DNA of 64,000 nt from Periweissella cryptocerci (GTDB lineage Bacteria > Bacillota > Bacilli > Lactobacillales > Lactobacillaceae): positions 930,001 to 994,000 of the forward strand of contig NZ_CP037940.1 of assembly GCF_004358325.1 (NCBI RefSeq), given 5' to 3'. The notes beneath the pieces were generated by a model. That model did no database searches. It saw nothing but the letters and a program-made list of their open reading frames with translations, and was not told where the DNA came from. This document shows positions 1 to 14,457 of this stretch, piece by piece (position 1 is the first letter of the stretch; each line of letters opens with the position of its first letter). Position numbers and translations under genes: made by a program.

Positions 1-442
1 AAAATGTTTCGAAAGCTGGAATTTTAACTGGCTCCCATTCTGATGATTCATCATGTAACCAAATCGCTAAACTAGGATTTTGCTTTCGACTAGAATAATC
101 TAACACTAAGAAATCTCCCGAAAACAATGCAGCGATAGGTAACAACTCAACACCAACCAAATCTTCATCAGAAATTAATCGTTCGTCAAGTTCAGTTAAT
201 ACCACATCAATGTCATATTCTCCAAGCTCATTATCTTCTGGTGTCTCAAGAATTGGGAGAAATTTTTCTATTAAATATTCTCGAGCATTTACGGTAAATT
301 CATTCGAAATTGGCGTTACACCATTATATGCGGTAATGAATTTCTTATAATCGTCTGGTAATACAACAGACCAACAGCCTTCTTCTTTTGTGATTAAATC
401 TTGTGAAGGAAGTGGAAACATAATTGACTTGTCATCGTACAT
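1..442 (-). CDS. SMI1/KNR4-family (SUKH) immunity protein, 3' end cut by window edge
   Basis: Partial gene; the C-terminus runs off the left edge. It is a near-perfect copy of the complete gene at 3267-3734, window position 1 aligning with 3293. The start is set by an ATG at 442 preceded by a strong AAAGGGGA ribosome binding site. The protein begins MYDDKSIMFPLPS and has the SUKH pattern WSV-LPDDYKKFI-YNG near the N-terminus and FSGDFLVLDY near the C-terminus. SUKH proteins are immunity proteins that neutralise diverse nuclease toxins. It lies 44 bp downstream of another SMI1 gene (487-966), so the two are probably co-transcribed. The cognate toxin is not identifiable. Confidence 0.8.
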   Translation of the reverse strand, partial: MYDDKSIMFPLPSQDLITKEEGCWSVVLPDDYKKFITAYNGVTPISNEFTVNAREYLIEKFLPILETPEDNELGEYDIDVVLTELDERLISDEDLVGVELLPIAALFSGDFLVLDYSSRKQNPSLAIWLHDESSEWEPVKIPAFETF

Positions 443-486
443 AATTTGTCTTTCCCCTTTATTTAAAATCTATTCACGTAATTTTT

Positions 487-966
487 TCATTCTGAAAGAT
501 TATCTAATAATTCAGCAAAAGATTTAAATGCCGGAATTGTTTTAGCTTCGAGTTCCATTGATTCTTCATGTAACCAAATTTCAACGTTAGGCATTTTTGA
601 ACCATTTTTAAAATTAAGCACTACAAAATCACCTGCAAAAAGAGTAGCTATTGGTAATAGTTCAACACCTAAAATAGATTCATCTGTATACAACCGATCA
701 TCAAGTTGCGTCAAAATCACATCGATGTCATACATGCCTAATTCATGCTCCCGAATAGGTTTTATTATACCTAAGAAACGTTCGATTAAGTATTTATGAT
801 TATTAACTGTAAATTCACCCGTAATTGGAACTCCCCCATTATATAAGCTAAGAAATTGTTTATATTCTACGGGTAATTCCAATCTCCAAATTCGCTCTTC
901 ACGACTAAATTGTTCATCATTAGGTACAGGCAATGCAATCGTACTTTCATCAATTTTCATAATCAT
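487..966 (-). CDS. SMI1/KNR4-family (SUKH) immunity protein
   Basis: About 159 residues. The motifs WRLELPVEYKQFLSLYNGG and FAGDFVVLNF are the conserved SUKH core, and the family normally binds and blocks toxin nuclease domains in the cytoplasm. The reading frame is open far upstream (to about 1245), but I place the start at the ATG at 966 because GAAGGA sits just before it and homology to the SMI1 genes at 1-442 and 3267-3734 begins there. The upstream in-frame part is a toxin remnant described separately. The immediate pairing suggests this protein once protected against that toxin. Confidence 0.75.
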   Translation of the reverse strand: MIMKIDESTIALPVPNDEQFSREERIWRLELPVEYKQFLSLYNGGVPITGEFTVNNHKYLIERFLGIIKPIREHELGMYDIDVILTQLDDRLYTDESILGVELLPIATLFAGDFVVLNFKNGSKMPNVEIWLHEESMELEAKTIPAFKSFAELLDNLSE

Positions 967-1245
967 TTTTCCTTCACACTTTTTATCTCGTACTGTTAGC
1001 CCAAAATCCAGTTGATCGCCCACCGCTGTTACATTATGAATTCCAAATGGAACTCGTTCCATTACTCCTGGTATGGCAGTATGGTGCCATGTTGTACCTA
1101 CTATTTTCCCACCAACGTGTTGATTAAGCCAGTCAAACTGAATTTTATCACTACTTAACCATAAACTCTTTGGTAATTCAACAGCATTTATCACTAAATC
1201 AGCCGAATAAAAATCAGCAAGCCTTGTAGTCCCATTTCCAATTTT
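967..1245 (-). pseudogene. C-terminal remnant of a WHH-type HNH nuclease toxin
   Basis: The frame upstream of and continuous with the SMI1 gene encodes about 92 residues, including GGKIVGTTWHH, ERVPFGIHN and GDQL. A TWHH followed about 12 residues later by VP--IH is the signature of the WHH branch of the HNH/ENDO VII nuclease superfamily, usually the last domain of polymorphic toxins. There is a TAA at 1246-1248 and no promoter, start or pre-toxin part, so only the toxin end remains. Unusually, there is no stop codon between remnant and immunity gene, so a read-through would give a fusion. The family call rests on motif reading only. Confidence 0.5.
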
Positions 1246-1331
1246 TTAGTTTTGTATGATTTGAGTGGTCAAAAAAAGGCCTTAAAAATTCCGTTACACC
1301 ATTGAAGATCTATTTACAAATCAAGTCAAAA

Positions 1332-1784
1332 TTACAAAGTTGATAGTTCAAAAAAGGCATCCAACAATTCATCTAATTTTGTAAATTCAGTAATTTCACT
1401 TCCTGATGGTGAATCCAAGAGACGATATACATTCATCAGTGAATCAAAGACAAATATACTTTCACCAGATTCTCCCAGAAATAAATACTTTCTATTGTCT
1501 TCAACTTCATACCATAATTCATTCCGTTCGATAATTCCATATACTATCCCCGCATTGATTTTTGGAATTATATCTTCGTCAGCTCCATATAAAGAATATC
1601 CATTAAATTCAATTCCGTTATGCAAACCAAGAAAATGTATATATTCACTAGGCAAAACTTTATTCAATGTAACCTTGATTGCAGCAGTTAATCGATAATA
1701 TTCATCATCAGACAGTCCTTCATTTAATTTTTTATCACGCCTTTGCGTCCGTTCTTCAATGAATTGTAAATCTTCTTTCCACAT
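1332..1784 (-). CDS. Immunity protein, SUKH/YrhA-like, partner of the HNH toxin at 1807-2940
   Basis: 150 residues. The segment LPSEYIHFLGLHNG resembles the SUKH (SMI1/KNR4) helix and GIEFNGYSLYG resembles the Bacillus YrhA branch. It starts at the ATG at 1784 with GAGGTG upstream, only 22 bp after the stop of the toxin cassette on the same strand. That toxin-then-immunity order is the rule in polymorphic toxin loci. The inferred role is to bind and inhibit the HNH nuclease encoded just upstream. I infer partnership from position, not from any known pair. Confidence 0.65.
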   Translation of the reverse strand: MWKEDLQFIEERTQRRDKKLNEGLSDDEYYRLTAAIKVTLNKVLPSEYIHFLGLHNGIEFNGYSLYGADEDIIPKINAGIVYGIIERNELWYEVEDNRKYLFLGESGESIFVFDSLMNVYRLLDSPSGSEITEFTKLDELLDAFFELSTL

Positions 1785-1806
1785 ATACTACACCTCATAT
1801 ATTTGA

Positions 1807-2940
1807 TTATTTTGGATTATAAATATTGTTTTTGATGAATGGCCAATTGATTATTCTCTTATCACCCGGCTTCATCCCTTTTGTACTTGATCTTTGATAA
1901 TTGGTAATCACCTTATGGTATGGTTCATTTTTAACTAACACCAAATTGCTAAAATCATTAGTCCCACTATCGTCTAATGGCAATTGATGATGGACTTGCC
2001 AACCATCAGGCACATAGCCATCTCTCATGTCTTCAATATCATTTTTTGTCAATCCATACTTCTGCAACCTTTTTTCATCAGTCGCCAAATTTCGCAAAAA
2101 TGATTTTTTTACGGAAGCATTAAATTTATTTCTAAGTTTTTTTGCTTCCACTGATGGCCGTTTTACGTACTCGACTGGTTTCGTATCAATATTTTTAAGT
2201 ACAATTTTCTCACCTCTGAGTAGCCCCGTGAAATTGTTTTCTTTTTTTACATCACCAGCAACCTTTGCAACTTTCTCACCCTTACCAGCTAACCCCAACA
2301 GTTCATCAGTCTTACCAAACTTCGAACCAACACCGACAACCGTTCCACCACTCACAAACAGCGAAGCAATCGTCAATCCTAGGTATGTTGCGGTGTACAC
2401 GCCACCGTTTTTCTTGTACATGTTGGTAACTGAAGCCGCTAACGCATTTTCTAATGCCTTACCACCATCTATTTTACCATTTGTCACTTTTGATAAATAC
2501 TTCGTAAATGACTCACCAGCTATACGCGTGTTTGCATCACCGCTATGCCGCATCAAACTAAGTGCCACGTTCGCCGCTGCATAGCCAGTATTTTTCAAAG
2601 TGGTCAACAAGCGATTTTGTGCGGCTTTATTACCAAATGAGGCACTAACTCCGTCCAGAAAAGTATCTTCCAGCCCCTTATTCAGGCTATATAAACCACT
2701 GCCCAAATCCGAGACAAACGCGGTTATACCCTTATCAACCGATACATTGAACCCAATATAGGCGTTGAGGGGTTTACTAATCCAGCTGGGGAGATGCTTA
2801 CTAATCGCCGATTTAACCGCGTTAGTCCCCTTATCAAATCCCTTAACCACCACTTTCGCTCCACGGCTAAACAAGTCACCAATTGCGTCCGAAAAATTAT
2901 CATAACGTTGTTTAATACCATTAACTATTTTTCCGGGCAT
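1807..2940 (-). CDS. Polymorphic toxin tip, shared pre-toxin module plus HNH nuclease; probable silent cassette
   Basis: 377 residues from the ATG at 2940. Residues 1-230 (starting MPGKIVNGIKQRYDNF) are almost identical to the second cassette at 4740-6128. They form a pre-toxin module with a hydrophobic stretch, YLGLTIASLFVSGGTVVGVG. The last 110 residues are unique and contain WQVHHQLPLDDSG, NLVLVKN and YHKVI, a typical HNH metal-dependent DNase layout. The frame stays open upstream to about 3130 (HYSPRNGKHLGG and so on, as in cassette 2), but there is no start, ribosome binding site or promoter there: the frame emerges directly from a terminator hairpin. Thus it is likely an orphan tip that needs recombination with a full-length secreted toxin gene to be expressed. 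The differences from cassette 2 in the shared part are few. Confidence 0.75.
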   Translation of the reverse strand: MPGKIVNGIKQRYDNFSDAIGDLFSRGAKVVVKGFDKGTNAVKSAISKHLPSWISKPLNAYIGFNVSVDKGITAFVSDLGSGLYSLNKGLEDTFLDGVSASFGNKAAQNRLLTTLKNTGYAAANVALSLMRHSGDANTRIAGESFTKYLSKVTNGKIDGGKALENALAASVTNMYKKNGGVYTATYLGLTIASLFVSGGTVVGVGSKFGKTDELLGLAGKGEKVAKVAGDVKKENNFTGLLRGEKIVLKNIDTKPVEYVKRPSVEAKKLRNKFNASVKKSFLRNLATDEKRLQKYGLTKNDIEDMRDGYVPDGWQVHHQLPLDDSGTNDFSNLVLVKNEPYHKVITNYQRSSTKGMKPGDKRIINWPFIKNNIYNPK

Positions 2941-3121
2941 ACTTAGGACATATTCAAGGGTACTTTGTTTGGGCTTTGTGAACTTCCCAGCCGGAATAAC
3001 GTGCTTGTATTTTTCAAGCGGATTCTTATCGCCACCGAGGTGTTTCCCGTTTCGTGGTGAATAATGGATTGTGATCGTCTGGGTTTCAGTTGAAAAACGT
3101 TGCCCTTTTTGAAAATGTAAA

Positions 3122-3170
3122 ACACCAACTAATTTGTAATAAATTTGTTAGTCGTGAATTTGTTGGTGTC
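3122..3170 (-). terminator. Cassette-boundary hairpin terminator
   Basis: On the minus strand ACACCAAC at one end pairs with GTTGGTGT at the other, followed by TTTTAC and AT-rich sequence. It lies downstream of the SMI1 gene at 3267-3734 and immediately upstream of the open frame of the toxin cassette. Related hairpins occupy the same place at 6121-6156 and 6887-6926. Confidence 0.6.
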
Positions 3171-3266
3171 TGTTTACTAAATATATTCGTTAATTCACTC
3201 AAAAAAGGCTAACTTGTCACCAATGACAAACTAACCTTTTTAAACTCATTTAATTAAAATCCGATT

Positions 3267-3734
3267 TCAATGCAACTTATTAAGTAACTCTGAAAATGTT
3301 TCGAAAGCTGGAATTTTAACTGGTTCCCATTCTGATGATTCATCATGTAACCAAATCGCTAAACTAGGATTTTGCTTTCGATTAGAATAATCTAACACTA
3401 AGAAATCTCCCGAAAACAATGCAGCGATAGGTAACAACTCAACACCAACCAAATCTTCATCAGAAATTAATCGTTCGTCAAGTTCAGTTAATACCACATC
3501 AATGTCATATTCTCCAAGCTCATTATCTTCTGGTGTCTCAAGAATTGGGAGAAATTTTTCTATTAAATATTCTCGAGCATTTACGGTAAATTCATTCGAA
3601 ATTGGCGTTACACCATTATATGCGGTAATGAATTTCTTATAATCGTCTGGTAATACAATAGACCAATAGCCTTCTTCTTTTGTGATTAAATCTTGTGAAG
3701 GAAGTGGAAACATAATTGACTTGTCATCATACAT
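3267..3734 (-). CDS. SMI1/KNR4-family (SUKH) immunity protein (complete copy)
   Basis: 155 residues, start MYDDK at 3734 with AAAGGAG 11 bp upstream; the longer upstream frame has no supporting site. It shares YWSIVLPDDYKKFI, YNGVTPISNEF and FSGDFLVLDY with the other SUKH proteins here and is about 97% identical at DNA level to 1-442. The intervening 3 kb therefore behaves like a duplicated unit. Just upstream, another frame (stop at 3751-3753) reads IPLPTPKGYKLHGSKCRSAG, which looks like the far C-terminus of a lost toxin and could mark the original partner. Confidence 0.75.
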   Translation of the reverse strand: MYDDKSIMFPLPSQDLITKEEGYWSIVLPDDYKKFITAYNGVTPISNEFTVNAREYLIEKFLPILETPEDNELGEYDIDVVLTELDERLISDEDLVGVELLPIAALFSGDFLVLDYSNRKQNPSLAIWLHDESSEWEPVKIPAFETFSELLNKLH

Positions 3735-4041
3735 AATTTGTTTTTCTCCTTTATCTAGGTGCATCTGCCCACATACCCGCTGACCGACATTTTGAACCAT
3801 GCAATTTATAGCCTTTTGGTGTTGGCAATGGAATACTGTATGATTATCCATTTACTATTTCTTTGATTGTTGTTTCTTATGAACTAGTTTCAAGTACTCA
3901 CAGAAAATATAAAAAAGACACTAGCCATTTACACTAGTGCCGTGAGTTTTTAGCTTACTTCATAAATATTTTTTTACGAAAGCGACCCGATATCATCAAC
4001 CATAATCATTCAATAAATAGTTTTTTTGACAAAAATAAACC

Positions 4042-4740
4042 TTATTCATCAAATCCAATATAATAATATTCATCAATGGCGTCCCAAAATTCTAAATCTA
4101 ACATAGGTTCAAAGTCCTTCAGCCAAATCATTGTTTTGACGTTCTCATCATTCGTGATATCCAATGTCACATAGCTTCCTGAACCAGTGCTCAAAAAATT
4201 ATAAGTGTTTTGAATATTGATTTTCGGTTCAATATTCAAGGGAAGTTCAACATCATCCATACTTTCAATGTTTAACATTTTATCCAACCCCATCGATTGG
4301 CTTGGATAATAATAAAAGCCGTCATGTAATTTTTCATAGAAATTTCGGAGGGCAATTGGAATATTACCCCAGAGCGCTTTTAGATTGTCATTCATGTCTC
4401 TATGAATTGTTAGAGGGTTTCCTCCCGCATAGTACATTGTTTTATTCGTTTGATAGCTTTCAATAGTGTAAAGTAAGTAAACGTCATCCTCTACTCGGAA
4501 TAATTCAATATTTTTCAAGAAAGATTCCAAATATTGAATTGTATTTCTAAGTTCGACTTTCACATATTTTTTCCACTCATTCAAAACGATATTTTTCTTT
4601 TTTTCAATATCCTTTTCATCCAAAATCGCAAGCCAATATTCTGGAACTCGAATTTCACCTAACTTTCTCGAATTTTTAACTGGAATTGCTTTACTATCAG
4701 ACAGTGTGTATTTACTCAAAAACTTATACTTATCCATCAT
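4042..4740 (-). CDS. Immunity protein for the HNH toxin at 4740-6128, possibly SUKH-like
   Basis: 232 residues. The start codon ATG at 4740 overlaps the toxin stop codon by one base (TAATG arrangement), giving tight translational coupling. ALWGNIPIALRNFYEKLHDGF in the middle resembles the SUKH entry helix, but the rest is not one I recognise. The acidic C-terminus (DAIDEYYYIGFDE) suits binding to a basic nuclease. The role as antidote is inferred from position. It has no signal peptide or membrane segment, so it should act in the cytoplasm. Confidence 0.6.
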   Translation of the reverse strand: MMDKYKFLSKYTLSDSKAIPVKNSRKLGEIRVPEYWLAILDEKDIEKKKNIVLNEWKKYVKVELRNTIQYLESFLKNIELFRVEDDVYLLYTIESYQTNKTMYYAGGNPLTIHRDMNDNLKALWGNIPIALRNFYEKLHDGFYYYPSQSMGLDKMLNIESMDDVELPLNIEPKINIQNTYNFLSTGSGSYVTLDITNDENVKTMIWLKDFEPMLDLEFWDAIDEYYYIGFDE

Positions 4741-6128
4741 TAACTTCCTTTCATGTAATTATAAATTAATTTTTGAAGTACTTTTTCCAATTTCTTTTCC
4801 TGTACCATCATTAACTTCCTATATTCAGGGTTAATTTTAATGCCTTTTTTCTTATACATTGTCCATTCTTCAATTGTCTTCGAGCCCTTCGACTTATTTG
4901 CAGTGCTGCTCAATGGCGTAAAATTAGCTTTATAATTGACTACCGCCTTTTGTTGTTCCAAAGTCAGCTTATCAAAACCATCTAAAGTCACAATTTTATC
5001 AAATGGAACAATATGGTCTGCCTGTAGTCTGGTTGTAATCATTTCACCCGGAATAGCGAAATCTTTCATCGGTATTTTAACATTTTCATTAACGTAATCC
5101 CTAATTGCAACATCCGGTGTTGATTTTCTCAGAACGTCATATCTGTCTTTTGATATTCGCCTTCCAACAAACCTTGGTTTAGTTTCTCCAACATTTTTCA
5201 AATCATCTAATTTTGCAATTTTTGCCAGGTTAGAATCCACCTTTGCTATCTTACCGCCAGTTGATGCAACTTTCTCACCCTTACCAGCTAACCCCAACAA
5301 TTCATCAGTCTTACCAAACTTCGAACCAACACCGACAACCGTTCCACCACTCACAAACAGCGAAGCAATCGTCAAGCCTAGGTATGTTGCGGTGTATACG
5401 CCACCGTTTTTCTTGTACATGTTGGTAACTGAAGTCGCTAACGCATTTTCTAATGCCTTACCACCATCTATTTTACCATTTGTCACTTTTGATAAATACT
5501 TCGTAAATGACTCACCAGCTATACGCGTGTTTGCATCACCGCTATGCCGCATCAAACTAAGTGCCACGTTCGCCGCTGCATAGCCAGTATTTTTCAAAGT
5601 GGTCAGCAAGCGATTTTGTGCGGCTTTATTACCAAGTGCAGCACCAACTCCGTCCAACAAAGTATCTTCCAGCCCCTTATTCAGGCGATACAAGCCACTG
5701 CCTAAATCCGAGACAAACGCGGTTATACCCTTATCAACCGATACATTGAACCCAATATAGGCATTGAGTGGTTTACTAATCCAGCTGGGAAGATGCTTAC
5801 TAATCGCCGATTTAACCGCGTTAGTCCCCTTATCAAATCCCTTAACCACCACTTTCGCTCCACGGCTAAACAAGTCACCAATTGCGTCCGAAAAATTATC
5901 ATAACGCTGTTTAATACCATTAACTATTTTGCCGGGCATACTTAGGACATATTCAAGGGTACTTTGTTTGGGCTTTGTGAACTTCCCGGCCGGAATAACA
6001 TGCTTGTATTTCTCAAGCGGATTCTTATCGCCACCGAGGTGTTTCCCATTCCGTGGTGAATAATGAATCGTAATCGTCCGGTGCCCCGGTTGAAAACACT
6101 TTGCCCTTAAAAAAAAGAAAAGCACCAA
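4740..6128 (-). CDS. Polymorphic toxin tip, shared pre-toxin module plus HNH nuclease; probable silent cassette
   Basis: Up to 462 residues if the TTG at 6128 were used, or 399 from the ATG at 5939 that matches cassette 1; neither start has a convincing ribosome binding site. The module from HYSPRNGKHLGG to GKGEKVA is nearly the same as in 1807-2940. After that the sequence diverges completely and carries LQADHIVPFD, NFTPLSSTANKSKG and a lysine-rich tail. This DH-x-V-P plus N-x-SKG pattern is an HNH nuclease subtype different from cassette 1. It is coupled to its immunity gene at 4042-4740. The frame begins inside a terminator (6121-6156), which supports a silent donor cassette. The secretion system and full-length gene are not in this window. 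Confidence 0.75.
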   Translation of the reverse strand: MVLFFFLRAKCFQPGHRTITIHYSPRNGKHLGGDKNPLEKYKHVIPAGKFTKPKQSTLEYVLSMPGKIVNGIKQRYDNFSDAIGDLFSRGAKVVVKGFDKGTNAVKSAISKHLPSWISKPLNAYIGFNVSVDKGITAFVSDLGSGLYRLNKGLEDTLLDGVGAALGNKAAQNRLLTTLKNTGYAAANVALSLMRHSGDANTRIAGESFTKYLSKVTNGKIDGGKALENALATSVTNMYKKNGGVYTATYLGLTIASLFVSGGTVVGVGSKFGKTDELLGLAGKGEKVASTGGKIAKVDSNLAKIAKLDDLKNVGETKPRFVGRRISKDRYDVLRKSTPDVAIRDYVNENVKIPMKDFAIPGEMITTRLQADHIVPFDKIVTLDGFDKLTLEQQKAVVNYKANFTPLSSTANKSKGSKTIEEWTMYKKKGIKINPEYRKLMMVQEKKLEKVLQKLIYNYMKGS

Positions 6129-6156
6129 CTAATTTAGTTAAAAATCAGTTGATGCC
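6121..6156 (-). terminator. Cassette-boundary hairpin terminator
   Basis: Minus-strand stem GCATCAAC with GTTGGTGC, followed by TTTTC and a run of eight T. It ends the YezG gene transcript and abuts the open frame of the second toxin cassette. Confidence 0.7.
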
Positions 6157-6171
6157 TATTCACCAAATATT

Positions 6172-6741
6172 TTAGAACAAACCGAAGAATTTCTTTTTCT
6201 TTGGACTATGTTGATTTTTGTCTTCCAAAGGTTCAGTAACATTTTTTTCTATATCAATGTCATTTTTATTCTTTTCGGCCAAATGCTCCTGTAATTCTTT
6301 ATAGCCAAAGCTCCCATCCTTAGGTACCAAGCCAATTGTGTCATAAGCCCAAAAAATTCGACGTTCAACTTGGCTTTCTGGTCCTTCCAACGCATGATAA
6401 CTAAAGTTAATTTTAAACTGTAGTTTAGGATTAATTTCCATCAATAGCTGATCCCAAATCTCACCATTCAAATTCAGATCAGTATCATAAATCTTAAGAA
6501 CTAAATCATATAATTCATCCAACAAACTGTCATATATATCTTCCGAAACTGAATACTTTTCAGGGATATCATGTGACAAAACAAATTCCTTAGTCTTTGC
6601 ATCCTGAAAATAAAATTCAGCAGAAATACTCGATTTTCCTACTTCAACTTCACTCAAGAAATAAATATAACTCCACTCGGTAGGAATCATATCAATAATT
6701 TGTTGCCCTAATTTATTAACATCTTCATTTTTAAGCACCAT
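6172..6741 (-). CDS. YezG-family (DUF600) immunity protein
   Basis: 189 residues, start ATG at 6741 preceded by GGAGAA. The N-terminal IIDMIPTEWSYIYFLSEVEVG, the central GEIWDQLLMEI and the ERRIFWAYDTIGLVP segment match the YezG layout. YezG is the antitoxin to the LXG nuclease YeeF of Bacillus. It ends in a lysine-rich tail KKKKFFGLF. No toxin lies directly upstream; a short frame at 6793-6880 with GVGSKVDKIDEI may be the last trace of a pre-toxin module like that in the two long cassettes. It was probably once the immunity gene of a cassette since lost. Confidence 0.75.
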   Translation of the reverse strand: MVLKNEDVNKLGQQIIDMIPTEWSYIYFLSEVEVGKSSISAEFYFQDAKTKEFVLSHDIPEKYSVSEDIYDSLLDELYDLVLKIYDTDLNLNGEIWDQLLMEINPKLQFKINFSYHALEGPESQVERRIFWAYDTIGLVPKDGSFGYKELQEHLAEKNKNDIDIEKNVTEPLEDKNQHSPKKKKFFGLF

Positions 6742-6886
6742 TTTTCTCCTTATCAGCTTTTCTGCCTATATCAGTGGCGGTTACATATTTCATCAATCTT
6801 GTCCACCTTCGAACCAACTCCTATGACAAAACAAATTAAGAAGAAAACAATCAAAACCATACCATTTGTCTTTTTATAAAAATAAA

Positions 6887-6926
6887 CAGGCACAAACTAA
6901 TTTATTTAAAAATTGGTTCATGCCTG
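6887..6926 (-). terminator. Cassette-boundary hairpin terminator
   Basis: Minus-strand stem CAGGCATGAAC with GTTTGTGCCTG followed by TTTATTTTT. It follows the broken YezG gene, just as the 6121-6156 hairpin follows the intact one; the sequences around both are clearly related, so gene plus terminator were duplicated together. Confidence 0.7.
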
Positions 6927-6975
6927 TTTATTATATATAACTTAGAACAAACCGTGGAATTTCTTTTTCTTGGGT

Positions 6976-7493
6976 TTATCGTTCATTTTTTGGTTTAGAA
7001 GGAATAGGTCCGCCAAAACAATTGATGAGCGTCTCCTCATCGTCTGAACAAGATTCAGGGACTATGTTCAAATCTTCATATGCCCATATAACTTCACGCT
7101 CATCTTGTGTAATGTCATTATCTAAAGCACCGTAAATAAAATCAACATTAAATTTCCCGTCTGGGGTTAATGACATTTTTATTTGATCCCACGGATTTTG
7201 CTTATTATCAATGAACACACGATATATCTTCACTAGTATAGTATCCATATTGTCTATAAGGTTATCATATTCCGCCTTCGAAACGTTATAAATATCAAGA
7301 ATATCGTTTGAACGAATAAAATTATTATTCTCATTTTTTCTTTAAAGTAAAAAATGGAAGCTGTACTCCTCTCCTTCGATTCTACCTCACCTAAATAATG
7401 GACTTCTGTCCAATCCTTAGGAATCGTCATAATCACTTCGTTGCCCAATTCATTGTATAAAGGTGCCAGTTCATTTTCTAACATAGTTATCAT
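6976..7493 (-). pseudogene. YezG-family immunity gene broken by a one-base frameshift
   Basis: Two frames join to one YezG-like protein: the first (7493 back to about 7340) has IPKDWTEVHYLGEVES, the second (to 6976) has NPWDQIKMSL, FNVDFIYGA and REVIWAYEDLNIVP, both in the order seen in the intact paralogue at 6172-6741. The break is in a run of six T at 7334-7339 (A on the coding strand); one extra A restores a continuous frame through KNENNNFIRSND. This may be true decay, a phase-variable tract or a base-calling error. If intact it would be about 171 residues. Confidence 0.75.
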
Positions 7494-7551
7494 CCTTATT
7501 GGATTTATTTAGAAAAAACTCAAAGAATTTACCTTTCCTGTGATTAATATA

Positions 7552-8015
7552 TCACCCTTTTCTCCAAAATCCCCATCTTCTTTTCTGTGTTTTTACTGGA
7601 TTAACACTATAATTTGTAAAATCCGGTACCTCAATTGGCTTTGACTCAACTTGTTTAATAATTTCAATCCAATCTATCCAAATTTTTTCTTTCGGTAAAC
7701 CATTTTTCAAAATCATTAAATTTGTTAGTATTTCTTTTGCATCAAGTTCTTCAGTACTATTCCACCACGATTTTAAAAACGAATACATCGTAAAATATGC
7801 TTTTTGAGCAAATATATTTCGTTCTATACCTGCACTACTCCAAATTTCCTCAAACTCACTCCAGATTGCAGGATCAGCTGGTAAATTTGTCTCAAAAATA
7901 TTAGTATCCATAGCGCCCAACAAAAACGCCAATTCCTCTCCACCATTTTTTTATAATAATCATTTAAAAATGCATTACTTATAACATATGCCAAATACAG
8001 TTCATCATTATTCAC
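7552..8015 (-). pseudogene. Probable immunity gene, unknown family, broken by a one-base frameshift
   Basis: The GTG at 8015, with AAGGAG 7 bp before it, starts MNNDELYLAYVISNAFLNDY. After a run of seven T at 7946-7952 the frame must shift by one to continue as NGGEELAFLLGAMDTN and then WSEFEEIWSSAG, YSFLKSWW and WIDWIEIIKQ. Adding one A makes a 154-residue protein. I do not recognise the family. It directly follows a toxin C-terminal scrap (8027-8134), so it is probably an immunity gene. Helical, tryptophan-rich, no signal peptide. Confidence 0.6.
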
Positions 8016-8026
8016 GTCTAATCTCC

Positions 8027-8134
8027 TTAATTTCTTTTTTTGAAACTTGAAAGTCCGGTTTTTTCATTCCAAGGTAATGGATGATCATTCCGACCGCCGT
8101 TTAATAGTTTCCCATTTCTAACTTGAATCCACAC
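8027..8134 (-). pseudogene. C-terminal scrap of an unidentified toxin
   Basis: An open stretch of 35 codons ending 11 bp before the GTG of the next immunity gene. It reads VWIQVRNGKLLNGG then RNDHPLPWNEKTGLSS. The RNDHPLPW stretch has the look of a nuclease or deaminase C-terminus, but I cannot assign it. A TAA lies at its upstream edge and an IS3 element 24 bp beyond, so the rest of the gene is gone. Confidence 0.35.
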
Positions 8135-8212
8135 TTACCTTGGAGTTAGTATGGTTTAGCGGACACTAAATCTCTATACTGAAAGTAATATTTCACAAGG
8201 AGATTTAGTATC

Positions 8213-8473
8213 ATGGCAAAACGTTTTAATGATGATTTTAAGCAAATGATTGTCGACCTAGCTCAGACCGACATGCCCTTAGCCGAAATCGCAGATAGTT
8301 ATTCAGTTGGGGTTTCAACCATTCAGAAATGGGTTAAGGCATCACAAGACAATAAACTACAAAGCACAACTTCGGCGGATGTGACTAAGCTCCGGCAAGA
8401 ACTCGCTGCCGCCAAACAGGAGAATGATATTCTAAAAAAATCATTGGCCATCTTCGCACGGAAAATAAAATAA
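8213..8473 (+). CDS. IS3-family transposase OrfA
   Basis: 86 residues. An N-terminal helix-turn-helix (EIADSYSVGVSTIQKWVKAS) binds the IS ends, and a leucine-zipper coiled coil follows (LRQELAAAKQENDILKKSL). The start ATG has AAGGAG upstream. The A-rich stretch near the end (AAAAAAATCATT at about 8434 and GAAAATAAAATAA at 8461) is where these elements shift to the orfB frame to make the fused transposase. Confidence 0.9.
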   Translation: MAKRFNDDFKQMIVDLAQTDMPLAEIADSYSVGVSTIQKWVKASQDNKLQSTTSADVTKLRQELAAAKQENDILKKSLAIFARKIK

Positions 8474-9368
8474 CTAACACTGACATTTATGACGCTATCG
8501 ATGAGCTTGATGTCAACGTTCAGTTGGCCACAAAGATCTTCGGTGTTCGACGTGGCACATATTATGATCATAAAAATCATCAACCAAGTATCCGAGAAAT
8601 TGAAGATGGCAAGTTACTCGCCATAATCAAAAAATATTATGACGACAGTAAAGGAATTTATGGTGCCCCCGCAATTCACGGACGGATGCGTAAGGATTGG
8701 CCTGGATCGTTGAGTTTGAAACGTGTGCAGAAAATCATGCGTGCCAACGGTCTGAAATCGAAAATTGTCGCTAAGTGGAAACCATATCCGGCAGAGAGCT
8801 CGTACGTGAAACAAGAGACTTTGATTAATCAGGATGGGATACCACTGATATTAACCAGATATGGTTCACCGACATCACCTACGTTAAAACGGTTAGAGAT
8901 GGGTGGACGTATTTGGCCAGTGTTATTGATATGCATTCCCGACGAATTATTGGCTATGCATATGGATTCCACAAAGACACCACATTGGCACTGATGGCTT
9001 TGAGTAATGCGTTACTTTCGCGCGATATTCGGCCAGATGAAACTATCCTACATTCAGATAATGGCCCTGAATTCACAAGTATCGACTATGAAGTTGTCGC
9101 TGAAGCATACAAACTCAGGCGGTCATACAGCGCACCTGGCGTCCCGTATGATCAAGCAGTCATTGAGTCATTCCACGCAACATTGAAGAAAGAAGAAGTT
9201 CACCCAAACGTGTATGAATCATTTGAGGAAGCACGTGTCCGCTTAATTTACTGGATTGAACACTGGTATAACCGCACTCGCTTCCATAGTAGTTTAGATT
9301 ATTTATCGCCGGTTGAATTTGAAAAAGAGCTGGCCGTAAAGAAAGTTCCAACGGTTCAGAAAACATAA
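8470..9368 (+). pseudogene. IS3-family transposase OrfB (DDE integrase), frameshifted
   Basis: The first part has the HTH_21 region (KGIYGAPAIHGRMRKD, SLKRVQKIMRANGL). The second has the rve catalytic core: first D in WFTDITYVKT, second D in LHSDNGPEFTS, and the E in VIESFHATLKKEE. The two lie in different frames. Adding one G to the GGG at 8836-8838 joins them as INQDGDTTDINQIWFTD. So the only lesion I see is one base in a short homopolymer. Without it the protein would be about 295 residues, the normal size. Confidence 0.85.
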
Positions 9369-9509
9369 GATATGACCGAATCAGAATTATTCGATTCGGA
9401 AGATTTGAGATAAGGATTTATTGATTCTTGGCTTAAATCTGCCGAATTGAAGAACTAATTTGGCAAATTTCACAAACTTTTTCAGAGATTTAGTGTCCGG
9501 TTTATTGAC

Positions 9510-9695
9510 TCAATTCCACCCAGGCAAAGTTTCCTTGTGATATATCACTCCATTTTTCTCAAAAAAAATATCAAATTCTTGAAAATTAGGAATTAATGTA
9601 CCGAAAAAATAATACCGTGTAGCTAAATCATCAAATTCATTAACACCGGCTTGAACTAGTTGTGTTTGTAATTTGGATAATTCATTTTCAAACAT
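9510..9695 (-). pseudogene. Truncated YezG-like immunity gene
   Basis: 61 residues starting MFENELSKLQTQLVQ with AGGAGAG upstream. It matches the first 55 residues of the complete gene at 13563-14084 (MFENELSELQTKLVQ, YYLLGT, EFEIF). It then runs into unrelated sequence and stops 11 bp before the right end of the IS element. The C-terminal two thirds are missing, so it is not expected to be functional. Confidence 0.7.
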
Positions 9696-9800
9696 TTTAT
9701 ACACTCTCCTAATCAATATATTGCCGACCCAAGCCAACAAATATTCCTTCCGAGTAGTTTTACGCTTGTAGTCAAACATCTGTGTTTAAGAGTATTCTGT
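9696..9800 (-). pseudogene. N-terminal remnant of a DUF805 membrane protein gene
   Basis: In frame upstream of the truncated immunity gene is FDYKRKTTRKEYLLAWVGNI, nearly the same as residues 13-32 of the DUF805 protein at 15175-15549. The body of the gene is missing and the frame fuses to the start region of the following gene. This is an internal deletion joining two tandem genes and shows the locus has lost material by recombination. Confidence 0.65.
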
Positions 9801-9854
9801 TGCTTTGATAAATAAACTTCTTATACTGCGTTGTCGTCTGCCAAAGATGAAAAT

Positions 9855-10133
9855 TCAATCATCAAGACCTAACTCTAATATTTCCGCTACTTTGATTAAA
9901 ATCTCTGCAGCCGACGAAAAGGTATTTTGTATTTCAAAATCTTCCAAAAATGGAGAATACCGTGATGTCAACGCAACAAGCTCATTAAATTCAGTCTCTT
10001 CCCGTTCAGATAACTCAGTATAATCTGTTTCACGATCAAAAATAATCGTAAATTCTTCAGTAAACGTATTAATCGTTATTTCACCGTCGTTGACAGCTTT
10101 AACCAAAGCCCATAATTTCTTTCTAGTTTGCAT
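9855..10133 (-). CDS. Small probable immunity protein (colicin-D-immunity-like?)
   Basis: 92 residues, acidic (many D and E), no membrane segment. The order FTEEFTIIFDRE, LSEREETEFNELVALTSRYSPF and AAEILIKVAEIL resembles the all-helical self-protective colicin-like immunity family, but I am not certain. It overlaps the end of the upstream membrane-protein gene (10123-10626) by 11 bp, so the two are translationally coupled. No toxin is adjacent. Confidence 0.5.
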   Translation of the reverse strand: MQTRKKLWALVKAVNDGEITINTFTEEFTIIFDRETDYTELSEREETEFNELVALTSRYSPFLEDFEIQNTFSSAAEILIKVAEILELGLDD

Positions 10134-10626
10134 GATTTTCTTTCTTATTTTTAAAAATTTTTTCTAACTCAGATATTTTTTGATGAAATTCCATATATTC
10201 AGTATATTCATTTGATAACTGATATTTCTCTTTTTTGGGGACCGATTTCATCAATATATATTTTTTACCATTATTCGAAAAGCGAATACTCCAATCCATT
10301 GTTCCCCAAGGTGTATCCGTGTGTCCCGTGTTCTGAAGAACAAAATTCATTGGATTAAGTATCACTTTTTTTCGACCTAAACTTATATATGCACATCCAT
10401 TTTCAATTTCTAAAACAACTCGCCTCGGAATGTAAACCATACCGTATAAAATTGGAGAAATCCCAAATGATGCAAGCATTGTCCATGCAAATATTTGACT
10501 ATCTGAAACATCAAATTTGATAGAAATTACCTCAAAAATAAAAAATGCGAGAAACAAAATTGATGCTTTAACAATATCAATTGAATTTGGCCACTTGCTA
10601 ATTTTAAATTCACCAGAAATTCTCAC
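10123..10626 (-). CDS. 'KWP' membrane protein, unknown family, paralogue of 12603-13112
   Basis: 167 residues. It starts with a short cytoplasmic stretch ending FKISKWPNSIDIV, then two hydrophobic helices (about residues 21-38 and 45-66). A soluble part follows with conserved IPRRVVLEIE, GHTDTPWGTMDWSIRFSNNGK and a coiled tail. The paralogue at 12603-13112 keeps all of these, and a truncated relative is at 14458-14601. I do not know the family. The setting among immunity genes suggests a membrane-bound protective role, but this is inference. Confidence 0.65.
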   Translation of the reverse strand: MRISGEFKISKWPNSIDIVKASILFLAFFIFEVISIKFDVSDSQIFAWTMLASFGISPILYGMVYIPRRVVLEIENGCAYISLGRKKVILNPMNFVLQNTGHTDTPWGTMDWSIRFSNNGKKYILMKSVPKKEKYQLSNEYTEYMEFHQKISELEKIFKNKKENHAN

Positions 10627-10690
10627 AGTTTTTTCACCCTTTTCAGTTTCTTCTTTTTCTTAGCTACTGCTGCATTCTACTGCTTTTAGT

Positions 10691-11314
10691 TTAGGCTAAT
10701 TTTTTCAGAAATTTTTCCACCAATACCTTTTCAATCGTGCTTACTAAAAATTCATTTGGTAAGTACTTTGTCAGTAACTTTGCTGCGTAGACTGACCTAG
10801 CCTCCAAATAAAGCGAGTACAACGCGTCTCCATATGTGCTTTCACCTTCTCTATTTATCCGCACTATACTTCCAGTACTAGTCTTAAAATAAACCTCATA
10901 TAAGCCGTTATTTGCTTGCAAAAAAAGTGTGCCCATATGTTCACCAGCTTTTGAAAAAACTTTCCCCCGCGGAAACAACGCATTGAATTTTTGCCGAACG
11001 AAAAAGGAATAATTCGTCTTTGCTAGTAAATTATCATATACATCAACAAACGGTAATGCGTTCTTCACCAAAATGATTAATAAAAAAATTTCTGCTTCAT
11101 TTCGTGAGTCAAAGTTAGTACTTTCAGATTTTACTCCCCTTGAGATTCGAGATACTGAATAGGCTCCCCCACCAGTAAGTGTATAATACGTTTCCTGATC
11201 TGTAACATTTTGTGAAGTTACTTGATAAACCTTAATACTACGTTTATCCTCATGCACTTGATGCTTGCTATTGAGACGATTACTAATTTTTGTTACCATT
11301 TCACTAAATTTCAA
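10691..11314 (-). CDS. Unknown 207-aa protein, paralogue of 15542-16210
   Basis: Starts MKFSEMVTKISNRL with GAGGTGAAG upstream. It shares with its paralogue the segments VTSQ--DQETYY, ALPFVDVY--LLAK, YSFFV--KF, GDALYS-YL and a C-terminal KYLP-x-F-(9)-VE-FLKK. No signal peptide; a hydrophobic stretch AEIFLLIILVKNALPF is short. No family recognised. Presence of two copies in the immunity repertoire, one overlapping a DUF805 gene, suggests that it belongs to the toxin-resistance set. Confidence 0.6.
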   Translation of the reverse strand: MKFSEMVTKISNRLNSKHQVHEDKRSIKVYQVTSQNVTDQETYYTLTGGGAYSVSRISRGVKSESTNFDSRNEAEIFLLIILVKNALPFVDVYDNLLAKTNYSFFVRQKFNALFPRGKVFSKAGEHMGTLFLQANNGLYEVYFKTSTGSIVRINREGESTYGDALYSLYLEARSVYAAKLLTKYLPNEFLVSTIEKVLVEKFLKKLA

Positions 11315-11371
11315 GCTACTTCACCTCTTGTATCAATTTCCCTATAGTGCCCATCATTCCAGTTGCTTGCA

Positions 11372-11842
11372 TCATTTATTCCTACCTTTTCCAAACAACG
11401 GTGTCATATTAATATTCAATTTAACATCTGCTACCCATTGTTCAAATACATCATCAGAGAGGAGGACTTCATCATCTGCATACATTAAATCATACTCATA
11501 GTTAATTTCTGCAGCCCCTAACTCTGAATCGTATGTTAACCTTATTTCTGTTGGAATAGGTTTTTCATTTTTCTTAAACATCTCCTCCAGTTCAAGTAAC
11601 TTATCCACCCCAAAATTAAAAAGAGACTCATAATCAGTAGATGCTCCGTTAAATGCCGATGTATCTCGAATGTCATTTCGAGTGTAGACTACATTATTAA
11701 CTTTAATAAAAAAATCAAAATCTAAGACGCCTTCTTCATCTGAAGCATAAATAAAGTAAACTCCATCTTGCCCATTCATATAGTCAAAAACATGCTGTAA
11801 AACGTCAGTCTGCCAACATGATAGAAATTTTTCAAATTCCAT
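11372..11842 (-). CDS. YezG-like immunity protein
   Basis: 156 residues beginning MEFEKFLSCWQTDVLQHVFDYM. It shows the YezG-like order: GVYFIYASDEEG, then FDFFIKVNNVVYTRNDI, then PTEIRLTYDSELGAAEINYEY and FEQWV. It is clearly paralogous to 11832-12278 (same opening, same RNDI block) and ends PLFGKGRNK like the 13563-14084 protein. The start overlaps the stop of the upstream paralogue, so they are a tandem duplicate read as an operon. Confidence 0.6.
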   Translation of the reverse strand: MEFEKFLSCWQTDVLQHVFDYMNGQDGVYFIYASDEEGVLDFDFFIKVNNVVYTRNDIRDTSAFNGASTDYESLFNFGVDKLLELEEMFKKNEKPIPTEIRLTYDSELGAAEINYEYDLMYADDEVLLSDDVFEQWVADVKLNINMTPLFGKGRNK

Positions 11843-12278
11843 TATTTAGCCTCTCTTTTTCAACCAACACCCAATTATCAAACACATCTGTCACAAGTAT
11901 ATTTTCATCATCTGAATACATTCGAGCATATCCATACTTAATTGCAATATCACCACCTATTGAATCATATTTCATTCGTACCTCAGTAGGTGCTTCATTT
12001 CCATTCTTTTCGAACATACTTTTTAAATCCAAAATCATATTCGTTCCTTTATCAAATAATTCTTCATAATCATTTGATGCGTCATTAAACATTACACTCC
12101 CGTCAATATCATTTCGAGTGTAAATTTTACCTTGCACTTCCATAAAGAAATCAAAACCCAGCACACCCGCTTCATTCGACCCGTAAATATAGTAATGCCC
12201 TTCCTTTCCGTTCATATAATCAAAAACAAGTTGCAATACTTCCGTCTGCCAATTTGATAAACCTTTTTCAAATTCCAT
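11832..12278 (-). CDS. YezG-like immunity protein (tandem paralogue)
   Basis: 148 residues, MEFEKGLSNWQTEVLQLVFDYM. The same blocks as in 11372-11842 are present: HYYIYGSNEAGVLGFDFF, YTRNDI, PTEVRMKYDS, GDIAIKYGYARMY. It overlaps the next gene by 11 bp. GGAG of CGGGGAG precedes the ATG. Tandem duplication followed by divergence is typical of immunity genes that track variable toxins. The family assignment is by overall pattern only. Confidence 0.6.
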   Translation of the reverse strand: MEFEKGLSNWQTEVLQLVFDYMNGKEGHYYIYGSNEAGVLGFDFFMEVQGKIYTRNDIDGSVMFNDASNDYEELFDKGTNMILDLKSMFEKNGNEAPTEVRMKYDSIGGDIAIKYGYARMYSDDENILVTDVFDNWVLVEKERLNNGI

Positions 12279-12291
12279 AACTCCCCGTCTC

Positions 12292-12483
12292 CTACTCTTT
12301 TCTGAATTTTAGACTTCCAATAGTTAATGCATTGCGTCCAACTAGAAGCAAACTAAAATTGTGTACGCCTATTACCCAAATTGGTAGCCACATAATAATC
12401 GAAATAAAAATGATTAATCTATTGGTCGTATTTGGCCAAATTAACGGATATGCCGTAAATTCATATTGATTTACTGTAGTCAT
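12292..12483 (-). CDS. Small membrane protein, unknown
   Basis: 63 residues, MTTVNQYEFTAYPLIW then two hydrophobic stretches (LIIFISIIMWLPIWVIGVHN and FSLLLVG). Starts at 12483 with GGGGCAG upstream and overlaps the previous small membrane gene by 23 bp. No family recognised. It may be a remnant of a longer membrane protein. Confidence 0.4.
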   Translation of the reverse strand: MTTVNQYEFTAYPLIWPNTTNRLIIFISIIMWLPIWVIGVHNFSLLLVGRNALTIGSLKFRKE

Positions 12484-12613
12484 CGTTTGTTCTGCCCCTT
12501 AGATTTTGTTGCATATTTCCAAGCATCATCAATGCACCAATTAATGCAAGTACTAGCAGAACAAGTTGCGTTAGTGTTAAACCGAATACAATATTTAAGA
12601 GTTTAACTCTCAT
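12461..12613 (-). CDS. 50-aa single-span membrane peptide
   Basis: Starts at the ATG at 12613, which overlaps the last 11 bases of the KWP-family gene at 12603-13112 (translational coupling). The sequence opens MRVKLLNIVFGL and has one hydrophobic helix (LTLTQLVLLVLALIGALMML) and a polar tail. Too short to assign. Coupling to the larger membrane protein suggests a shared complex. Confidence 0.4.
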   Translation of the reverse strand: MRVKLLNIVFGLTLTQLVLLVLALIGALMMLGNMQQNLRGRTNDDYSKSI

Positions 12614-13112
12614 TATCTTTTCTCCCATTTTTAAAAGATTTTTCTAAGCTGAACAATTTTTTATGAAACTCTTGAAATTCCTCATATTCTTTACTAAATG
12701 TATATCCATCAACCGGTTTAACAGATTTGACAAGTACATAATTTCGACCATTATTAGAAAATCGAATAGTAAAATCCATATTTCCCCATGGCGTATCAAT
12801 ATGACCTATTGGTTTTAATTCAAAATTCTCTGATTTTAAAATCACCCTATTTTTACCCATTCGGAGCCATACTTGGTCTTCACAAACCTCAAGGCTAACC
12901 TTCCTAGGAATGTAACTAAGTCCATACGTTGCAGGCAACGCAATAAAAGACACTAGTAATACACGTGCCAATACTGGGCCCATTGATTTATCAAGCACAA
13001 TAATTGATCCTTCAATAATTAGGATACTGAGAAACAAAATTGAACTTTTAAATATATCAATAGCTTTAGGCCATTTGTTGATTTTAAAAACTCCAGAACT
13101 TAATACCGTCAT
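12603..13112 (-). CDS. 'KWP' membrane protein, paralogue of 10123-10626
   Basis: 169 residues. FKINKWPKAIDIFKSSILFL leads into two membrane helices. The soluble part has IPRKVSLEVCEDQVWLRMGK and GHIDTPWGNMDFTIRFSNNG, almost the same as the paralogue. GGTAAGAAG precedes the ATG. It is coupled to a 50-aa membrane peptide downstream. The shared TPWG-M-D--IRFSNNG block is the best query for finding the family elsewhere. Confidence 0.65.
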   Translation of the reverse strand: MTVLSSGVFKINKWPKAIDIFKSSILFLSILIIEGSIIVLDKSMGPVLARVLLVSFIALPATYGLSYIPRKVSLEVCEDQVWLRMGKNRVILKSENFELKPIGHIDTPWGNMDFTIRFSNNGRNYVLVKSVKPVDGYTFSKEYEEFQEFHKKLFSLEKSFKNGRKDNES

Positions 13113-13200
13113 TGCTTCTTACCTTTTTTCTTTTTTTGTTGTCAAAGCATATATTGCCATATGTACAAACAAGAGATTGAATTCTCTTGTTTATTAATTA

Positions 13201-13566
13201 CTACTTCTGTTTACTTGGTAAGAATGAAACAATCAAAAAGAAAATCCCTGTGACTGGAATAATCATCAATAACCCCAGCCATGGTGACAATCCAACATCA
13301 CGCAAACGGCGTACATTCAAACTTACTGAAGGTACAATAACTGCCAGTAATAAAAATACGACGAACACGGTCACGATAATATCAATCATATCGTTAGTCC
13401 CTGAATCAATTAATGCCAAGATGGCGCCAATTAATAATGAACCTACGATAGTTACTAATACGAACAAAATCGCATTACCTAACATTGCCCACCAGTAATC
13501 TGCTCGAGTTGCCTCTGATTTGTAGTCAAACGTTTTAATCCAAAAATCTTTGGTTGCTGTAATCAT
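13201..13566 (-). CDS. DUF805 membrane protein
   Basis: 121 residues. The DUF805 hallmarks are all present: FDYKSEATRADYWWAMLGN near the start, four hydrophobic helices, and LNVRRLRDVGLSPWLGLLM before the last helix. DUF805 proteins are small inner-membrane proteins of unknown function. The ATG at 13566 overlaps the stop of the YezG-like gene (13563-14084) by 4 bp (ATGA), so the two are translationally coupled. This fits the domain fusion seen at 28814-30589. Confidence 0.85.
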   Translation of the reverse strand: MITATKDFWIKTFDYKSEATRADYWWAMLGNAILFVLVTIVGSLLIGAILALIDSGTNDMIDIIVTVFVVFLLLAVIVPSVSLNVRRLRDVGLSPWLGLLMIIPVTGIFFLIVSFLPSKQK

Positions 13567-14084
13567 TTGTTTTTCCCTCGTTTAAATAGTTTTGCTAATA
13601 AAGATTCATTTGCATTAACTTTTGTATTAATTATTTTAGATAACTTTGGAGTATCACCCAAAATACTGTACCCTTTATTCTCGCTAATTTCTTTCATCCA
13701 TTTTTTAGCTAACATAGTACTCAATATGCCATTTTCAACATGCTTTGTTTGATAACGAAAATCAGCAGTTAAAGAATTATTATTGTAATCATATTCCCAA
13801 TACATTTCTTCTGGAATTTCCTTACCATTTCTTTGAAACAACTGTTCAATTTCACTAATGATTTTTAGTGACCCGCGCATAAACAAAGTTTCCATATCTT
13901 CATCAATTGTTTTTAAAAATTCTTGCTCATCTAATACACCGTCTTTAGCAAGAAAAATTTCAAATTCTCGAAACCCGGCTCCAATTGTTCCCAACAAGTA
14001 GTAAACGTCGCCCTTATCATCAAACGTATCTACGGTATCTTGAACCAGTTTAGTTTGTAATTCAGATAATTCATTTTCAAACAT
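13563..14084 (-). CDS. YezG-like immunity protein
   Basis: 173 residues, MFENELSELQTKLVQ, then YYLLGTIGAGFREFEIF, then PEEMYWEYDYNNNSLTADFRY and a C-terminal tail LAKLFKRGKNK. The pattern matches the N-terminal domain of the 591-aa fusion at 28814-30589. It lies 20 bp downstream of a nuclease toxin tip (14104-14448) and is thus the likely antidote to it. It is coupled to a DUF805 gene downstream. Confidence 0.65.
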   Translation of the reverse strand: MFENELSELQTKLVQDTVDTFDDKGDVYYLLGTIGAGFREFEIFLAKDGVLDEQEFLKTIDEDMETLFMRGSLKIISEIEQLFQRNGKEIPEEMYWEYDYNNNSLTADFRYQTKHVENGILSTMLAKKWMKEISENKGYSILGDTPKLSKIINTKVNANESLLAKLFKRGKNK

Positions 14085-14103
14085 TTAGCAATACCTCATC
14101 ATA

Positions 14104-14448
14104 TTATTTAGAATTATTAAAGTCCTTAAATACTTTCTTATTATTTCCAATCTTGTAACTCACATGATAAGCAGTTGGTCTTTGGCTTCCATCTTTCGGA
14201 TATTCAATATCAATTTGAACTGTCACTTTTTTTGGAGGATTAGCATCTAGTTCTGCACGCCATTCACTTTCCATTTTATAGTACGCATCACGATTAAGAT
14301 CTTTATCTTGCGATAGTAAATTATCACGCAAATTCGACCCACCAAATTGGTCACCAATGATATGATCCGTTTCTAACTTATCAAACGTTTCTGAACTATT
14401 TCCCATCTTCGGTCCGTGTTTTTTTACATGTAATTCTTTTGCTTCCAC
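14104..14448 (-). CDS. Toxin tip: DNA/RNA non-specific endonuclease (NS_2-like), N-terminally truncated
   Basis: 114 residues. TDHIIGDQFGGSNLRDNLLS, KDLNRDAYYKMESEW and VTVQIDIEYPKDGSQRPTAY match the C-terminal nuclease domain of many LXG-type secreted toxins (Endonuclease_NS_2 group), where DH/GH-I-A-D-x-F-GG and the N-L--Q---LNR motif hold the metal and the substrate. There is no pre-toxin or secretion domain and the start region is unrelated DNA. It is therefore an orphan tip, followed at once by a YezG-like immunity gene. The substrate is inferred to be nucleic acid in a competitor's cytoplasm. Confidence 0.7.
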   Translation of the reverse strand: MEAKELHVKKHGPKMGNSSETFDKLETDHIIGDQFGGSNLRDNLLSQDKDLNRDAYYKMESEWRAELDANPPKKVTVQIDIEYPKDGSQRPTAYHVSYKIGNNKKVFKDFNNSK

Positions 14449-14457
14449 ATGTGAAAT

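Follow-up and report, generated by a model that had tools for sequence, protein, structure and literature searches.

The stretch analyzed here (the window) is 64,000 nucleotides (nt) of the Periweissella cryptocerci genome, bases 930001-994000 of a single-contig, 3.02-Mb assembly that is 99.99% complete. Its left part holds an array of immunity genes interrupted by the C-terminal ends (tips) of polymorphic toxins. These are likely to be displaced orphan tip/immunity cassettes in a poly-immunity array that outlived its toxin, and the array looks like a shield gathered from past toxin swaps, not a working toxin switch. The argument is carried by two tips with a common upstream module, different ends and no convincing start, and by the search for a toxin that could receive them. 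Positions refer to the window, negative ones lying to its left; L005:n gives coordinates in the stretch left of the window and L038:n those in a second locus at 1.055-1.058 Mb.

A module common to two start-less toxin tips

An earlier note on this DNA described two toxin tips with about 700-850 bp of almost identical 5' coding sequence. Alignment bears this out: two long open frames on the minus strand, 3147-1807 (tip 1) and 6128-4740 (tip 2), both taken stop to stop, have 816 nt in common with 29 differences. Start strength was scored as anti-Shine-Dalgarno (SD) energy, for which 1000 random 20-mers gave a median of -3.7; a quarter of them reach -5.6 and a twentieth reach -8.8. Terminators were called with a rule-based scan, and hairpin stability is given as folding energy with its z against shuffles.

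1807-3147, minus strand: orphan toxin tip 1, an open frame of 446 codons with the shared module and then an HNH-type end
4740-6128, minus strand: orphan toxin tip 2, an open frame of 462 codons with the shared module, a nuclease-like end and no convincing start
2266-3081, minus strand: shared pre-toxin module, tip 1 copy (DNA alignment with the tip 2 copy)
5265-6080, minus strand: shared pre-toxin module, tip 2 copy (29 of 816 nt differ, 22 synonymous and 7 nonsynonymous)
1332-1784, minus strand: SUKH-like immunity gene of tip 1 (SUKH E 2.9e-5, 25 bits, just under the cut-off of 27; SD energy -9.5)
4042-4740, minus strand: probable immunity gene of tip 2 (no confident Pfam family; SD energy -9.9)
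3122-3170, minus strand: degenerate hairpin before tip 1 (fold 3117-3175, -11.6 kcal/mol, z -3.5; 22-nt loop, poor T run; absent from the terminator scan)
6121-6156, minus strand: terminator hairpin 3' of a YezG-like gene, inside which the tip 2 frame opens (fold 6113-6160, -19.1 kcal/mol, z -6.9; terminator scan)
14104-14457, minus strand: third start-less tip, Endonuclea_NS_2 (EndoNS_2), broken (Pfam E 1.5e-19)
14084-13563, minus strand: possible immunity gene after the EndoNS_2 tip (no Pfam match)

The HYSPRNGKHLGG module comprises 272 codons, and its copies are 97% identical over 272 amino acids (aa). A weaker match continues upstream to 3144/6145, into the hairpins (94.8% over 882 columns), and downstream of the module the two frames carry different ends. 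The ratio of nonsynonymous to synonymous substitution rates (dN/dS) between the module copies is 0.091, with a dS of 0.125 (neutrality P 3.8e-9; 0 of 2000 simulations as low). Such a ratio would not come from silent copies that drift in parallel, so the divergence would have built up while the modules were translated, or a translated copy would have corrected them. Probably the modules diverged while translated and were silenced later. Their differences are clustered, with 11 of them in one 100-nt stretch (as many in 46 of 3000 shuffles), and the longest identical run was reached in 75 of 3000 shuffles; this uneven spread hints at recombination, though not strongly. The closest hit in a sequence search of PDB had an E of 0.05, and neither NCBIfam nor PADLOC matched tips 1 and 2. 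An hhalign comparison of the module with three LXG toxins gave no match (probability 0.15%), a weak test with a query of only two near-identical sequences.

Both tip frames open inside hairpins, at 3147 and 6128. The earlier note had them emerging from terminator stems, which holds for the hairpins in both cases and for a called terminator only at 6121-6156; with its 22-nt loop and poor T run, the hairpin at 3122-3170 is at best a degenerate terminator. The note's observation that the tips have no start or ribosome site is sustained in that neither has a convincing one. The first start codon common to both is an ATG at module codon 48 (anti-SD energy -0.9), and tip 2 has an extra in-frame TTG inside the stem, at 6128 (-2.6); both score weaker than the random median. 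Of the immunity-like starts, 17 of 23 score -7.0 or lower (for one of the 23, a SUKH copy, the scored position was off by one base from the true start, 3734). A promoter scan of the tip region returned 52 sites against 58.7 in shuffles and is not informative. Tips 1 and 2 are predicted to be silent because a hairpin lies directly upstream of each and neither has a good start or ribosome site.

The ends of the tips have relatives on complete toxins. The tip 1 end is 53% identical over 143 columns to the C terminus of a Bacillus subtilis LXG toxin, and the tip 1 immunity gene matches the YrhA-family gene beside that toxin (34% identity, E 5e-28); since both match the B. subtilis pair, the pair travels together. 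Plasmid records matching tip 1 number 459, none spanning 80% of the query in one place, and the best 15 of the 459 begin at query residues 262-285, near the module end at 272. For the tip 2 end the relative is a Rhizobium DUF4150 protein encoded near a VgrG gene (36% identity to its end over 181 columns), and the tip 2 immunity gene is 38% identical to the gene after that homologue over 52 C-terminal residues only. Across 396 other genomes of the family (one per species, 397 with its own, of which five belong to the genus, its own included), the tip 2 end was found in none, and a phage search with tip 2 gave no match. The HNH ends named by the earlier note do differ from each other; the Pfam HNH score of tip 1 is below cut-off and Pfam does not recognize tip 2, so the HNH label rests on homologues. 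The different immunity genes that it coupled to the tips are confirmed, 1784-1332 being SUKH-like and 4740-4042 having no confident family. The EndoNS_2 tip shares 40% identity with the end of an LXG toxin that is complete in Lacticaseibacillus absianus (782 aa) and has a YezG-like gene after it there. The match runs upstream through an in-frame TGA, so the tip is broken. When 11 array proteins or pieces were compared with 30 LXG loci, EndoNS_2 gave the one match (locus L057).

A stack of immunity genes with a recurrent tail

The array had been placed at 1-8135 by the earlier note. It is much larger, spanning about -6150 to 16216 and thus extending beyond the left edge of the window, and the two tip units have a second common flank, a SUKH gene. 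It is a stack of different immunity genes in one orientation, interrupted by tips 1 and 2, a barnase-like tip and the EndoNS_2 tip. Ten of its immunity genes score above their own Pfam cut-off, one of them split. Left of the window, on the same strand, are the barnase-like tip (ribonuclease E 1.7e-7), which retains only a diverged piece of the module end, and a Barstar-like gene (E 3.3e-6), two GAD/Tdi1-like genes, a SUKH gene and others. There is also a scrap of an HNH end matching tip 2 (66% over 32 residues), followed by a paralogue of the tip 2 immunity gene (L005:17459-18145; 118 of 228 aa identical). Between these paralogues dN/dS is 0.24, a value that averages over old divergence, dS being near saturation at 1.68. 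The remaining features in the window are as follows.

3267-3734, minus strand: SUKH immunity gene, the second flank common to both units (Pfam SUKH_6; near-identical copy at 442 to -25)
1-442, minus strand: the other SUKH copy, running out of the window (Pfam, DNA alignment)
487-1245, minus strand: one frame joining a WHH nuclease-end scrap (E 4.9e-6, residues 33-56) to a SUKH immunity gene (SUKH_6 E 1.1e-13)
3917-3941, minus strand: terminator-like hairpin 3' of the probable tip 2 immunity gene (terminator scan)
6172-6741, minus strand: YezG-like immunity gene ending in KKKKFFGLF (Pfam YezG-like 4.6e-30; SD energy -8.9)
6779-6863, minus strand: module-end scrap (GVGSK) between a hairpin and the YezG-like gene, probably a deleted tip (82% DNA match over 33 nt; frame at 6821)
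6887-6926, minus strand: third hairpin of the tail-terminator block (fold 6880-6930, -22.0 kcal/mol, z -7.5; absent from the terminator scan)
6942-7508, minus strand: YezG-like gene split over several frames, with the tail KKKKFHGLF in another frame (open reading frames, Pfam)
9510-16216, minus strand: rest of the array in the window, immunity-like genes, of which one is YezG-like and one a DUF805 membrane gene by Pfam and the others have no assignment (open reading frames, Pfam)

The SUKH flanks, -105 to 465 and 3187 to 3757, are 98.2% identical over 571 nt. The gene copies have a dS of 0.031, with 4 nonsynonymous and 3 synonymous differences and no sign of constraint. A single tandem duplication of the two units was rejected: the flank ages differ (dS 0.125 for the module against 0.031), the spacing is 2999 against 3292, and the centers are unrelated. 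Flanks of different age around unrelated centers argue for separate exchange events. The GVGSK scrap in the earlier note is real (window 6821), and module scraps elsewhere in the genome lie at 927137-927304. The third terminator of that note, at 6887-6926, is a stable hairpin that the terminator scan did not call; its block is 79% identical to the block at 6100-6215. Among immunity genes of the YezG kind, to which EsaG belongs, the split gene has a relative at L038:14141-14509 (93% identical DNA), and the YezG-like gene occurs in one of the 396 other family genomes, that of L. absianus. At the second locus, which is smaller (1.055-1.058 Mb), there are a YezG-like gene, a GAD gene copy with 79% DNA identity, a gene with a weak TPR match (E 0.04, under the cut-off) and what by eye is a SUKH gene.

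Immunity proteins that are not related to each other end in a common C-terminal tail resembling KKKKFFGLF. Within the array it reads KKKKFFGLF in the YezG-like protein at 6172 and in the second GAD protein (GAD2), KKKKFHGLF in the split YezG-like gene at 6942, KKKKFLGLF in the Barstar-like protein and KKKKLFGLF in an unassigned protein; at 1.055 Mb it reads KKKKFFGLF in the GAD copy and KKSKFFGLF in the TPR-like protein (window 6172-6204 and 6942-6976; L005:13904, 16322 and 18365; L038:12837 and 13563). Other immunity genes of the array, such as the SUKH genes, do not have it. One common hairpin block follows the tail in the array, its pairs being 77-92% identical, and a sixth copy of the tail-hairpin block lies at 924600-924681 with a short frame; at the second locus the tail is present and the hairpin absent. 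The tail was found in none of the 30 LXG loci in a local scan, and no literature on such a tail in immunity proteins was found, judged by title and abstract start. That the tail is a mere DNA hitch-hiker of the terminator is not favored: at 1.055 Mb two proteins carry it although the terminator is absent, and in one of them other codons encode it. We infer a membrane-tether role and offer a tentative and rather doubtful proposal around it, in which tail and terminator form a portable 3' end of the cassettes, the tail tethers unrelated immunity proteins to the inner membrane face against incoming nuclease toxins, and the DNA block serves as downstream homology for the exchange of tips and immunity genes. 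If functional, the common tail would be a simple, testable rule for where immunity proteins act.

Several other observations concern the array and its surroundings. An insertion sequence lies inside it at 8160-9499, with perfect 16-nt inverted repeats at 8160-8175 and 9484-9499 and transposase-like open reading frames at 8213-8473, 8524-8994 and 8913-9368, the last two in different frames; its assignment as IS3-type is by eye only. Next to it, the chimeric frame 9510-9785 joins the beginning of a membrane gene (84% identity of 9711-9815 with 15448-15552) to a stretch that by eye resembles the 14084-13563 gene, and is probably a deletion scar. The gene at 7552-8063, which has no Pfam family and whose window copy is split over two frames, is repeated about 24 kb away at L005:3101-3538 (72% over 395 nt). 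At 28814-30589 on the minus strand is a 591-aa protein with SUKH and DUF805 domains and an N terminus like that of the array YezG-like genes (by eye only), which looks like a fused polyimmunity protein. LPXTG-like surface proteins, recognized by eye, flank the array on both sides (17183-18739, 32602-34749 and L005:6381-10571), some with leucine-rich-type repeats.

The missing toxin and the readings of the array

A full-length toxin bearing the module, which the earlier note suggested seeking in the rest of the genome, was not found there; the module occurs in the two tips and otherwise as scraps. It was absent from 59 other relatives and from the 396 other family genomes, and a peptide-pattern scan of genome contigs found no relatives of it. 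The corresponding scan of viral contigs with tip 2 found none either, another genome-contig scan found one relative, again L. absianus, and a near-DNA search of plasmids gave no match. No N-terminal LXG domain is present in the tips, and the L. absianus LXG toxin used as a query found only the EndoNS_2 piece in the genome. The LXG, YukC (EssB) and WXG100 models found no match in the genome, so that the absence of an export machine rests on three Pfam searches, the ATPase EssC not having been searched. With at most seven candidates scored per genome (all nine for its own), LXG matched at E 0.001 in 29 of the 397 family genomes and over cut-off in 21, and in none of the five of the genus, its own included. 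A full-length toxin elsewhere in the genome was rejected, the searches with tip, module, L. absianus toxin and the three models all being empty of one. No toxin that the array could supply with tips was thus detected in this genome.

A history that fits these results can be proposed in steps. Full-length toxins with an LXG-type or similar head would repeatedly have taken up new tip and immunity cassettes, recombining upstream within the shared module and downstream within other common sequence; at each exchange the displaced tip would have lost its head but not its immunity gene. The module comparison supports a next step in which modules from separate expressed toxins diverged while translated and were cut off later. 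The negative searches support a loss by which the head gene and the type VII machine would now be missing from the genome, and the sequence supports a state in which tips 1 and 2 are silent and most immunity genes keep their own ribosome sites. The immunity genes may have been kept as protection against relatives still carrying such toxins; the tips would be leftovers, though homologous recombination could still transfer them as cassettes.

Several points weigh against this history, besides the machine having been sought with three Pfam models. The module matches no LXG toxin, so the LXG origin of the absent head is inferred from the tips. The constraint on the module could stem from recent gene conversion or from translation that leaves no visible signal in the sequence. 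Six of the 23 immunity-like starts are poor (the GTG of the WHH-SUKH frame -5.4, 10133 -5.6, barstar -4.0, L005:14383 -3.8, GAD2 -2.9 and the split YezG -0.4), and a quarter of random 20-mers also reach -5.6. The barnase-like tip may be translated, since its TTG scores well (-9.2).

The earlier note read the DNA as a donor array whose tips recombine homologously into a single expressed full-length toxin; that toxin could sit in this strain or in a sister strain of the species. Much of that description stands: the tips are orphans with long open frames and no convincing start, they have cognate immunity genes, and homologous flanks on both sides (the module and the SUKH block) would permit exchange, a process described by experiment for Salmonella rhs (PMC3967940). 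What has not been found is a recipient to switch. The note itself tied its switching model to a homologous full-length toxin in related genomes, and with none among the 396 the model fails as far as the tools reach. The stretch before the module is also far more diverged (47 nt at 74%), leaving the module alone as usable upstream homology, and we regard a live donor array as improbable.

We think equally little of the view that the locus is plain debris left behind by a lost toxin locus, with no function today even for the immunity genes. The split YezG-like gene, the module and HNH scraps, the WHH-SUKH run-together, the broken EndoNS_2 tip, the insertion sequence, the chimeric frame 9510-9785 and the unconstrained SUKH copies all fit decay. 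Against it stand the many intact immunity genes, the good ribosome-site scores at 17 of the 23 starts and the dN/dS of the tip 2 immunity paralogues, saturated as their dS is. Intracellular action of the tips, for instance as toxin-antitoxin pairs, with translation from an internal or non-canonical start, would suit the dN/dS of 0.09 between modules, the TTG at 6128, the common ATG and the TTG of the barnase-like tip, but is very improbable given the hairpin directly upstream and the weak energies of tips 1 and 2. Displaced cassettes in an array that outlived its toxin remain the preferred reading.

Relation to known systems

Orphan cdiA-CT/cdiI and rhs-CT/rhsI modules of contact-dependent growth inhibition (CDI) and Rhs systems (PMC3150448, 2011; PMC3967940, 2014) are start-less toxin ends with linked immunity genes. 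They lie in arrays that also include insertion elements, some have homology 5' of the toxin end, and an orphan immunity gene was expressed in one strain. Tips 1 and 2 resemble them in having no initiation signals and a cognate immunity gene directly downstream (the tip 2 pair matches weakly), and the same toxin ends occur on full-length polymorphic toxins elsewhere. The CDI and Rhs orphans sit behind a main gene, whereas here no main gene or delivery system was found and hairpins lie between the cassettes.

Standalone toxin cassettes with immunity genes, and polyimmunity loci that stack immunity families including SUKH, are described in PMC3482391 (2012). Those loci are given there as never interrupted by toxin cassettes; this array mixes both. 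Strings of esaG immunity genes of the type VII secretion system (T7SS) have been explained by recombination between paralogues (Garrett and others 2022, PMC9484751), and immunity arrays of the Vibrio cholerae type VI secretion system (T6SS) by effector displacement (Kirchberger and others 2017, PMC5361080). Compared with both, this array has many unrelated immunity families, several with the common tail, and no secretion system was found. LXG toxins of the type VIIb system (T7SSb) carry ends like those of tip 1 and the EndoNS_2 tip, and for tip 1 the immunity partner is alike as well, whereas here no LXG head or machine was found and the module has no detectable relatives. A silent-cassette switching system has an expressed recipient gene, which was not found in the genome or in the 396 family genomes. 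Literature searches that took in lactobacilli turned up no such array among the papers listed, judged by title and abstract start.

The array belongs to a kind already described among CDI, Rhs, T6SS and T7SS immunity arrays, and the common tail is an unusual extra. The CDI and Rhs papers (PMC3150448; PMC3967940) concern Gram-negative bacteria whose orphan tips sit behind a full-length toxin gene. This member of the Lactobacillaceae, without a detectable recipient or export machine, keeps the immunity genes, two open-frame tips and a module marked by protein-level selection, which makes it possible to ask whether such arrays persist for shielding and not as archives of toxins.

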